A stretch of 64,000 bases of DNA, taken from Halobacteriovoraceae bacterium (lineage in GTDB: Bacteria > Bdellovibrionota > Bacteriovoracia > Bacteriovoracales > Bacteriovoracaceae). Every line of letters starts with the position of its first letter. The stretch's first letter is position 1. The position numbers and the translations under genes were made by a program. The notes beneath the pieces were generated by a model that saw only the letters and a list, made by a program, of their open reading frames with translations, made no database searches and was not told the origin of the DNA. Positions 34,661 through 41,402 of the stretch are shown piece by piece. The stretch lies in assembly GCA_002718735.1 (NCBI GenBank), contig PBFR01000019.1, forward strand, positions 1 through 64,000, written 5' to 3'.

Positions 34661-36043
34661 TTATGCACTAATTTTAATGGGAATGTCTTTTGTTAAGGCC
34701 TTTACCTCTTCTTCAAAACTACGTTTTATGACACCTTTGGCGGTCTTTTCTTCCACGATCTTGAAGAAGATATTATCTTCATAAGATATAGAGCACATTA
34801 TCGTAAGTAAATGAGTCAGCTTTAAATTTAGCTCTTTAAGTTCAGAGTTTGATAAGGTGCTTGGAGCTGCAACTAAGTTTTTCATCCAATCCTTAATAGA
34901 GATCAGACTTCTAAGCTTTGAATCAAGAGCACGGCAGGTAAAAGACTCTACTAAACTCTCCTGGCGACATAGGAAATTTTCAAGCAATAGATACTCTTCT
35001 TTGCCAATTTTTTTAACAAATCGACTTTTCAAAGAAAACAATAAGGATTTGGCGGTATCAAGATACTCTAAAAAGGTTTCTAAGGATTTTAATTGATCGC
35101 TATCGCTCTCAAGAATGTCATTAATGATTACTTGCACCTTTGGATGGATAAGACCTGACTGCATCTCATCCCAAGCTTCACGTAGACATGGATAATTCAC
35201 GAAGGCCTTAATCAGCGGCCTAATGTAAACCTCATTTAATTCGTTTATGACAGCGCTAATGTAATTTTCCAAACTTTCTTTTAGAAGTTCAGTTTTTTCC
35301 AGGTCTCTATACATGAAGGCCTTGTGCCTTGCTTGCTCGGCCACAATCAGAAAGTGTTGAGTACGCTTACTAAGAACCTCCCAGGACTGTTGATAAACGT
35401 TGTCCTGAAGCTCGCAATTTCTTATGAAATAGTCATAAGTAAGGTTTCTCTTCATCTCCAACCAACGAGGGTACTGATTGTATGTTTCCCCCTCTTTCTT
35501 TCCCAACGCGATAGTATGAGCGGTCACGAAAAGATTTTGGGTTTGCTGCGAAACAATTAAATCCTCCAAGGCCTGCCTGATATCCCCAGTGTCCCTTGCA
35601 TGATTTGCCTTATATACAAAAAGATCACCCACCTCAAACCAAACATTGTATTTATGTGTGCTGTTCTGGAAGTCTTCTAAACATTGATTCTGCCTCTGTT
35701 TTATTTCATCAGGTTTAAAGATCCCATCAATACGCAAGATATGAATCGAGTCATAGTTTGACATTACCAGGTGAGTCTCCACTCCATTTTCAATCTGTGC
35801 TCGTATCTCTTGATAGACCTGATCTTTCAGGTGCCCAGCTCTTAAGTCCTTTTCCATAAATGGAACAAGTGAGCTTCCTTTGTTCTCTATCACCTCTTTT
35901 AATCTAAACATGAGATCATGGGCCTCTTTTTGATTCCAAGGTATAAAAATGTGCTTTCTGATGTTTTTTTGAAGGAGGGGATCTTTTGAAAAAGTGTAGA
36001 TATTGGAGACTCTTTCAAAGACCTTGCACTGGGCCCATTTCAT
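34661..36043 (-). CDS. Helical protein of unknown function
   Basis: The 460-residue product is mostly alpha-helical with no signal peptide, membrane segment or motif I recognise. The N-terminal 100 residues contain basic and aromatic stretches (RKHIFIPWNQKEAH). The rest is Leu/Glu/Lys-rich. The ATG at 36043 has AGGAG five bases upstream; the frame extends to 36106 without a better start. It lies upstream of motAB but is separated from it by the FliA-like promoter. No reliable function can be offered. Confidence 0.7.
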   Translation of the reverse strand: MKWAQCKVFERVSNIYTFSKDPLLQKNIRKHIFIPWNQKEAHDLMFRLKEVIENKGSSLVPFMEKDLRAGHLKDQVYQEIRAQIENGVETHLVMSNYDSIHILRIDGIFKPDEIKQRQNQCLEDFQNSTHKYNVWFEVGDLFVYKANHARDTGDIRQALEDLIVSQQTQNLFVTAHTIALGKKEGETYNQYPRWLEMKRNLTYDYFIRNCELQDNVYQQSWEVLSKRTQHFLIVAEQARHKAFMYRDLEKTELLKESLENYISAVINELNEVYIRPLIKAFVNYPCLREAWDEMQSGLIHPKVQVIINDILESDSDQLKSLETFLEYLDTAKSLLFSLKSRFVKKIGKEEYLLLENFLCRQESLVESFTCRALDSKLRSLISIKDWMKNLVAAPSTLSNSELKELNLKLTHLLTIMCSISYEDNIFFKIVEEKTAKGVIKRSFEEEVKALTKDIPIKISA

Positions 36044-36172
36044 TGGAGCTCCTAGGACAAAGGTTAATGACTTAGATCTCCATACTAAGGCAGTGCACAA
36101 TACCAAACAAGAACAATCGTGAATTTTTTAGGATAATTATTAAAAATTAAGGACTTAAAGGAAACAAACTCC

Positions 36173-39140: not shown

Positions 39141-39719
39141 TTACGCTTCAGTTTCTTCAGCGTTTTCTTGAGCTTCAGTGCCTTCAGCTTTCGCTTCTTC
39201 GCCTTCTTTAGCTCCTTTTCTGCCAGCTTTTTTAGCAGCGGCTTCCTGCTTTTTCTTCTCTTCTTCAACTTGCTTAGGATCCATTTCAACTTTAACTTTG
39301 AAAGTAGCATCTACGCCTTGGAAAAGCTGAGCTTTAACTTCAAAATCACCCAAAGTCTTAATTGGATCGTCAACGTTGATAAGTCTTTTTTCTACAACAA
39401 CACCTTGTTTTTCTAATTCTTTAGAAAGCTCAGTGCTTGTAACTGTACCAAAAAGTCTACCGTTCCCACCAACTTTCTTAGTAACTGTAATAGTCTTTCC
39501 ATTAAGTTGTTTTGCAAGGTCAGTAGCAGCTTTCTTTTCTTCTTCAACTTTCTTAGAAAGCATTTTTTGGTAATCTTCCATTTGCTTAGTATTACCTTCG
39601 TCAGCAAGAAGGGCTAGCTTATTAGGAATCAAATAGTTTCTGGCATAACCTTGAGATACGTTTACTACCTCACCTACGTTGCCAAGAGTCTTAACTCTAT
39701 CAGTAAGTATAACTTTCAT
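39141..39719 (-). CDS. rplI: 50S ribosomal protein bL9 with charged C-terminal extension
   Basis: The N-terminal 150 residues match bL9: MKVILTDRVKTLGNVGEVVNV, split as MKVILTDRVKTLG and NVGEVVNVSQGYARNY, followed by the long central helix and the C-terminal domain (GRLFGTVTS). An extra tail of about 40 residues is an Ala/Glu/Lys low-complexity run. L9 binds 23S rRNA near the L1 stalk and reaches across neighbouring ribosomes. It sits in the S6-S18, DUF2232, L9 operon order. Confidence 0.95.
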   Translation of the reverse strand: MKVILTDRVKTLGNVGEVVNVSQGYARNYLIPNKLALLADEGNTKQMEDYQKMLSKKVEEEKKAATDLAKQLNGKTITVTKKVGGNGRLFGTVTSTELSKELEKQGVVVEKRLINVDDPIKTLGDFEVKAQLFQGVDATFKVKVEMDPKQVEEEKKKQEAAAKKAGRKGAKEGEEAKAEGTEAQENAEETEA

Positions 39720-40694: not shown

Positions 40695-41294
40695 TTATCT
40701 AGCAGTCTGGTTGGACATGTAGCTAATAAGACCCATACATCTACCACGCTTAATAGCAGTAGTAGCCATTCTTTGGAACTTAGGTCTTAGACCAGTAACA
40801 CGAGCTGGAGAAATCTTTCCAAATTCGTTTACAAGCCAAGCGTAAGAAGAAGGATCTTTCCAATCTGGTTGAGTTTTCTTAGCTGAGAAGTAGCAAGACT
40901 TTCTCTTTTGAAACATCTTCTTTTCTTTTTCAGCATCTCTACCAGCTTCGTCTTTACTTCCGTGGTTAGGGTTGCTGTAGGCCTTAACAATGCTTTCTTG
41001 GTCGCTGTCTTCTCCAAGTCTAACAAAGATAAATTTCTCAACTTCTTCGTTAATGTTAAAACGTCTCTCGATCTCTTTGTTAGTTTGAGAGTCAGTTTTG
41101 TACATTACATAAAAGTAGTTACCTTTAGTGTGACCTTTTGAAGTTGGTTGAGCGTAAGTTTTTACACCCCAATGGTCTTCTAGTAGAATTTCACCTTTGT
41201 TCTCTTCTACTACTTCTTTAACGATAGACGCCACTTTTTGGATGGCCTCTTCATTTGCCTCTGGACGAAGCGCGTAGGCTGTCTCATAAATCAT
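40695..41294 (-). CDS. rpsF-rpsR: Fused ribosomal proteins bS6 and bS18
   Basis: One uninterrupted 199-codon frame encodes bS6 (residues about 1-104: YETAYALRPEANEEAI, TKGNYFYVMYKT, RRFNINEEVEKFIFVRL), a charged linker of about 22 residues, and bS18 (127-199: FQKRKSCYFSAKK, FGKISPARVTG, FQRMATTAIKRGRCMGL). These two proteins bind each other on the 30S platform and are normally encoded by adjacent genes. The first ATG has a strong AGGAGG. An internal ATG at 40916 begins the S18 part but has only an A-rich, weak ribosome site. I see no stop or frame break between them. Confidence 0.9.
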   Translation of the reverse strand: MIYETAYALRPEANEEAIQKVASIVKEVVEENKGEILLEDHWGVKTYAQPTSKGHTKGNYFYVMYKTDSQTNKEIERRFNINEEVEKFIFVRLGEDSDQESIVKAYSNPNHGSKDEAGRDAEKEKKMFQKRKSCYFSAKKTQPDWKDPSSYAWLVNEFGKISPARVTGLRPKFQRMATTAIKRGRCMGLISYMSNQTAR

Positions 41295-41305
41295 ACAATT
41301 CCTCC

Positions 41306-41325
41306 TGGGTTTATATTTAAGCCCA
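41306..41325 (-). promoter_or_regulatory. Hairpin directly upstream of the S6-S18 ribosome site
   Basis: On the minus strand TGGG-C-TTA and TAA-A-CCCA form a small stem directly before AGGAGG. Ribosomal-protein operons of this kind are often self-regulated by S6:S18 binding to the leader. The known CCG-containing S6:S18 motif is not apparent, so a regulatory role is uncertain. Confidence 0.3.
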
Positions 41326-41402
41326 AAGCATTTTACTTTGAGCGAGTAAATTGTTTTTAAATGTCAGCACAATTTAGCGCAAGGCAAGTTAAAAGGAAAG
41401 AG

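Follow-up and report, generated by a model that had tools for sequence, protein, structure and literature searches.

On the minus strand at 40695..41294 of the window (the whole 64,000-nucleotide stretch of Halobacteriovoraceae DNA that was analyzed) lies a single gene encoding ribosomal proteins bS6 and bS18 as one chain of 199 amino acids, starting with ATG and free of internal stops. S6 and S18 are partners that both reside on the platform of the 30S subunit and are ordinarily separate proteins. The bS6 domain (residues 3-92; 41019..41288, minus) was recognized by PF01250 (72.5 bits vs. a cut-off of 27, E 3.3e-20, residues 3-92) and by NCBIfam TIGR00166 (46.5 bits vs. 42.9, residues 1-92). 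The bS18 domain (residues 128-194; 40713..40913, minus) was recognized by TIGR00165 (58.3 bits vs. 38.75, E 6.5e-16, residues 128-194) and PF01084 (52 bits vs. 21, residues 139-190), and the curated Pfam and NCBIfam cut-offs were exceeded for both domains. Between them lies a joint (residues 95-127; 40914..41012, minus) composed of the S6 C-terminal tail, with K104, Y106 and P109, and a charged S18 lead. A Shine-Dalgarno sequence, AGGAGG (41301..41306, minus), is located 6 nt 5' of the ATG and forms a duplex of -10.3 kcal/mol with the 16S tail (ViennaRNA), while the corresponding value for the internal ATG at 40916 (Met127) is just -1.1 kcal/mol. An earlier, sequence-only reading of this DNA had described one 199-codon frame holding bS6, a linker and bS18, a single strong AGGAGG ahead of it and a weak ribosome site at the internal ATG; translation, the domain searches and the duplex energies bear out all of this. 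That reading gave no strand for 40695..41294, and the frame reads on the minus strand.

The gene order in the window is S6-S18, a DUF2232 membrane protein (PF09991; 39721..40689, minus), bL9 (39141..39719, minus; recognized by Pfam and NCBIfam) and DnaB, and the order S6, S18, DUF2232, bL9 is repeated in loci of the same class that extend that far. The bL9 protein carries a charged C-terminal extension of ∼45 residues past the Pfam L9 domains. Downstream of DnaB and chorismate-enzyme genes, a frame of 481 amino acids (34661-36106, minus) had no Pfam match at E ≤ 0.001.

A protein search identified 474 relatives of the fused protein at E ≤ 1e-3; both Pfam domains are present in all of the best 120 of these, whose taxon names are Bacteriovoracaceae or Halobacteriovoraceae. 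In a scan of assembled genome contigs, nine of nine S6-S18 loci were fused, three of them belonging to uncultured Oligoflexia, and the taxa of the fused relatives are Bacteriovoracaceae, Halobacteriovoraceae and "uncultured Oligoflexia" MAGs of Bdellovibrionota. Within the class that contains the closest genome, 129 genomes were searched, giving an S18 match in 118 and an S6 match in 119. Among the 118, 110 carry the fusion, five have separate genes, one has a stop in the linker and two are cut by contig ends. The S18 region was inspected directly in 91 of them, in addition to the window (83 fused; five separate, G028, G062, G063, G064 and G067; one stop, G074; two cut, G113 and G123), and the remaining 27 were counted as fused on the basis of S6 and S18 matches on one contig with frames equal in length. 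Away from contig ends the joint was open in 83 of the 89 inspected class genomes, with 17 different lengths; that gap lengths are multiples of three is a product of sorting loci by shared frame, and the evidence is the 83 of 89 open joints. The S6-S18 fusion is real and is kept across most of the class. The sequence-only reading had left it to an alignment of relatives whether the fusion is conserved or a lone event; since it is conserved, a lone sequencing event is ruled out. A sequencing or assembly artefact, which has nothing in its favor except the rarity of such fusions elsewhere, is rejected as having a negligible chance in view of the 474 relatives, the nine contig loci and the 110 class genomes.

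A second ordinary S6 or S18 was not found by S18 and S6 searches in nearly all class genomes, with a single S18 match in 118 of 118 and a single S6 match in 118 of 119. Genome G077 contains a second S6 on a separate contig (G077:C102:487-744), which at 96.7 bits scores above the fused copy and is possibly foreign or a contamination, and G023 has an S6 match in a 137-amino-acid frame and no S18 match. The linker of G074 (locus L049) contains one in-frame TAA, with no ATG, GTG or TTG ahead of S18; this is either a base error of the assembly or a true split with an odd start. At the level of the phylum (368 genomes, 332 with S18), S18 frames outside the class are at most 155 amino acids long among the matches listed. 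In 20 outgroup genomes, S6 adjoins S18 in seven and is located elsewhere in 13; the S18 proteins of these 13 unlinked loci (L125-L137) are without the zinc-ligand cysteines.

The fused gene is preceded by a structured 5' leader (41295..41354, minus; MFE -16.4 kcal/mol, z -2.62), predicted to consist of an outer helix, H1 (41354-41344 with 41304-41295, minus), and an inner hairpin, H2 (41343-41334 with 41330-41321, minus). Within it, a conserved CUC (41344..41346, minus) is the partner of the Shine-Dalgarno GAG (paired in 98.2% of cells across 76 leaders). The 3' internal loop UUAAAUAUAAACCCAG (41305..41320, minus), defined from the alignment and the window fold, contains a conserved CC, with C in 71 of 76 and 76 of 76 leaders (alignment columns 124-125). 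In the upstream regions of 90 loci a pattern recurs in which CUCGCU and a stem that varies are followed by GGGC, a loop rich in A and U, CCAGGAGG and AUG. The motif CCAGGAGG resembles 16S ACACC(A/G)GAGG in five class genomes, 16S having been located in 11 for this comparison, and is a candidate for rRNA mimicry. Many members of the class also share a conserved ACATTTA motif 5' of the hairpin (41358-41364 in the window, minus), possibly near the transcript start; a consensus promoter and terminator scan gave results at chance level.

The six-pair inner helix was paired in 97.8% of cells over the 76 leaders, with double changes in five of the six pairs, and a two-pair extension in 67.5%. Taken together, H2 and its extension contained 145 double-change cells, compared to 47.8 in shuffles, and had a covariation of 0.585, compared to 0.187, with 0 of 500 shuffles as high in either case; these figures are inflated by the alignment of 76 leaders having been fitted to the six-pair helix. 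When the H2 partner was slid by one column, covariation fell to 0.184 or 0.138. RNAalifold recovered the same H2 helix from a plain MAFFT alignment of 52 leaders, with double changes in four of the six pairs. Changes in CUC and the Shine-Dalgarno GAG were one-sided only among the 76 leaders, and therefore this pairing is without double-change support within the class. The leader flanks paired more strongly with their own partner than with those of other genomes (mean -5.38 vs. -4.14 kcal/mol, 0/2000 permutations) among 75 leaders, in a comparison that omitted 12 of 87 in which the anchors were absent and that ignored relatedness.

A covariance model of the leader, R1, was built from 52 of the 90 upstream sequences and searched over 97 sources. 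Matches directly 5' of the gene were obtained at 84 of 87 class loci, comprising all 82 fused loci (50 of them from the training set) and the loci of G074 and G067, which had also served for training. Scores in the class ranged down to 21.0 (E 0.065) and 22.6 bits for the two weakest matches, with 56.6 bits for the window. Among the 87 class loci searched, R1 had no match in the separate-gene clade G062-G064 (L045-L047), in which a different hairpin lies ahead of rpsF. The E. coli leader and six of the seven outgroup leaders with adjacent genes were likewise unmatched over the 97 sources; the outgroup match was in G288, directly ahead of rpsF (20.4 bits, E 0.1), and the six other matches scored at or below 19.1 bits.

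Conversely, the Rfam model of the RpsF_leader, RF02893, which has a consensus near the E. coli sequence, gave zero matches in the 20 fused leaders tried (the window at E ≤ 5, 14 Bdellovibrionota loci at E ≤ 1, two of them fused, and a further 17 fused loci, again at E ≤ 5), with 110 bits for the E. coli positive control. Because the model matches none of the 20, we do not assign the leader to RF02893; the likeness is one of layout and, presumably, of mode of action. The E. coli rpsF leader, CCUUGCCUCC, stem, GGAGGCUGAAUAAUCCGUAAGGAG, fits the plan of the class leader, in which an outer helix sealing the Shine-Dalgarno sequence, an inner helix, an asymmetric CC loop and an adjacent rpsF were all found (partly by eye). 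A leader of the same plan was recognized by eye ahead of rpsF in all seven outgroup loci with adjacent rpsF and rpsR. Six of these read CUUUGC or CUUGC, stem, a GGGCUU-like 3' arm and then AAGGA, and G294 is a variant (CCUUAGACC, stem, GGUCU, AGAGGAGG); the leaders of G326 and G341 contain an additional hairpin in the loop. In most outgroups CUU or CCUU faces AAG/AAGG of the Shine-Dalgarno sequence, whereas in the class CUC faces GAG (by eye). The shared fold was not always the minimum when single outgroup sequences were folded with ViennaRNA. Because the same layout precedes a separate rpsF in seven of seven outgroup loci, the leader is probably older than the fusion. Given the plan shared by the outgroups and E. 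coli, we read the class leader as related to the widespread S6:S18 leader but diverged from it, and as retained through the fusion; Fu 2014 and Matelska 2013 are reportedly the founding papers on that leader.

The joint itself points to how the fusion may have arisen. The separate-gene genomes have an S6 tail of the form K-x-Y/F-x-x-P, more loosely so in G028, and an S18 lead such as D-K-D-R-R-M-F-x-R-K-K-S-C, each like its counterpart in the fused joint. Because both tails occur in genomes with separate genes, the fused joint resembles a merger of two pre-existing tails. At or near the class base, the C-terminal tail of S6 would have become continuous with the N-terminal lead of S18, giving the fusion. 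An RpoB tree and a tree of ribosomal proteins around L2 left G062-G064 unresolved at the class base, and also the position of G067 near it, while a quick tree of the operon placed G028 and G062-G064 outside the rest of the class with support 92; G028 is present in the operon tree only, as RpoB and L2 matches were not found in it. Free trees needed two changes for the fused state, and a single fused clade was not rejected by an AU test (p 0.475) in which G074 was grouped with the fused genomes and G028 was absent.

The S18 part differs between fused and separate proteins. The zinc-ligand set CxxC...CxxH (CCCH) was found in 0 of 84 fused S18, the window included, and in five of five separate S18; the G074 S18 is also without it. 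Forms of bS18 with (C+) and without (C-) the zinc site are both described in PMC9976891, and therefore loss of the site is by itself ordinary. The window protein and the other fused S18 lack the full set of four ligands of C+ bS18 and are of the C- kind. The class has one S18 match per genome, with no C+/C- pair found. The new point is that within one class the fused S18 are C- and the separate ones C+, in few lineages, the five separate-gene CCCH proteins representing three lineages at most. With numbering matched by eye, Y23, K24, K60 and R63 of E. coli S18 correspond to W145, K146, K182 and R185, each found in 84 of 84 fused proteins, and R61 to R183, found in 71 of 84. Judged from this alignment, the fused chain retains residues used in E. 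coli for S6-S18 contact and RNA binding.

According to PMC4647458, the E. coli rpsF leader confers approximately fourfold repression, which requires an excess of both S6 and S18, and changes in the S6-S18 interface weaken this regulation. The same source places K60 and R63 of S18 at two conserved cytosines and reports that changes in these residues also weaken regulation. The conserved S18 residues and the behavior of the E. coli leader led us to a single-chain feedback model. One polypeptide would supply both bS6 and bS18 to the 30S platform, while the outer helix of the leader hairpin would seal the Shine-Dalgarno sequence. Chain in excess over 16S rRNA would bind the leader and stabilize the sealed form, and the leader-bound chain would thereby stop being translated; through coupling, translation of the operon would probably be halted as well. 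It is probable, in our judgment, that this is a single-chain S6-S18 protein retaining S6:S18 feedback; the uncut chain, the binding and the repression we infer from sequence and by analogy with E. coli. The sequence-only reading had likewise coupled a fusion with single-chain feedback: the fusion proved to be conserved, and the feedback gains support from the covarying leader at 82 of 82 fused loci and further from K182 and R185, kept in every fused protein. A further reading, which we hold less likely than not, is that S6 and S18 of this class form a permanent single chain, one molecule of which is enough to repress through the leader. Tethering to S6 would then compensate for the stabilization that S18 lost with its zinc site, and the tether may be close to the 16S 3' tail on the platform of the 30S subunit.

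Across the 84 fused proteins (83 genomes and the window), P109 is present in 84, K104 in 83 and Y106 in 72. The linker differs in length and sequence between species, and its residues 113-128 have a pLDDT under 50 in the AlphaFold model (pTM 0.53), which does not resolve the linker, and therefore a claim about geometry is withheld. A flexible and variable linker would also suit a precursor that is cut by a protease, with separate S6 and S18 entering the ribosome, as in the eukaryotic ubiquitin-ribosomal protein precursors, which are cleaved fusions. However, there is no invariant column between residues 110 and 133 in the 84 proteins; moreover, the conserved parts of the joint need no cleavage role, since K104, P109 and the basic stretch ahead of Cys134 have counterparts in separate-gene genomes, and we find a precursor rather unlikely. 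It is very improbable that both forms are made, i.e., the long chain plus S18 from an internal start codon, although 52 of 84 fused genes have an ATG, GTG or TTG after the S6 domain and ahead of the first cysteine of S18 (ATG in 42) and nine have a duplex at or stronger than -6 kcal/mol there, so S18 alone could arise in some species. Against this, 32 of 84 have no start codon in the joint, and most joint codons are without strong pairing, compared to a mean of -9.5 kcal/mol at the S6 starts. With the weak duplex in the window and these 32 genes, an internal start was rejected as the main source of S18. The best 50 Foldseek rows were to S6 or ribosome entries and covered ∼92-112 aligned columns, the length of a single domain, and a PDB sequence search had no match spanning both domains among the best 60 of 68 rows.

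Feedback through the leader also has an alternative, namely that the leader is genuine as an RNA but does not sense S6:S18, being instead, e.g., a thermosensor or a site for another ribosomal protein. The failure of RF02893 to match would agree with this, but the leader directly adjoins rpsF, its Shine-Dalgarno-sealing layout and the CC before the Shine-Dalgarno sequence are common to the E. coli leader, and the same layout stands ahead of the separate rpsF in the seven outgroup loci (by eye). This alternative is unlikely, though we give it some weight, and single-chain S6:S18 feedback remains our preferred reading.

Two conserved ribosomal proteins have thus been welded together and kept so across most of a class. 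Nature has in effect run an experiment on why S6 associates with S18 ahead of rRNA binding, on whether the partners in a ribosomal protein complex must be able to separate, and on feedback by a single-chain effector. The fusion also marks the class and calls for caution in annotation: relatives are named S6 alone, S18 alone or both in the sequence sources (some as "S18/S6"), and with such inconsistent names one of the two proteins can look missing. No publication on the S6-S18 fusion was among the results listed by searches of an open-licence literature library. A search based on the E. coli proteins, which scored just the 8000 candidates sharing most words, found both domains in 21 of the best 120 proteins, 20 of these 21 in single-member clusters. 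Among 13 sporadic S6-S18 frames inspected, several have an internal S18 start or are rearranged, and P0121, P0124 and P0126 look like plain fusions; these frames near E. coli also hold both domains in frame, but the clade-wide pattern was not seen among them. What we rate as new is the class-wide fixation of the fusion together with the covarying leader.

Among the closest known systems is the E. coli rpsF leader (RF02893; PMC4647458), which also has a sealing outer helix, an inner helix and a CC loop, and the RNA-binding Lys and Arg residues of S18 are likewise kept in the class protein. The E. coli effector, however, is a two-protein complex whose genes flank priB, whereas the class effector is proposed to be one chain, and the class leader sequence is too distant for the Rfam model. 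The Chlorobi S6:S18 r-leader is another lineage-restricted leader ascribed to S6:S18; PMC7247131 has it regulating rpsF, ssbA, rpsR and rplI, with a motif said to be unlike the rRNA site. In-frame joining of a ribosomal protein domain to another protein is likewise seen in the L9 fusion NF011110/PRK14538, but there L9 is joined to a signaling protein, whereas the class fusion unites two ribosomal proteins that bind each other.
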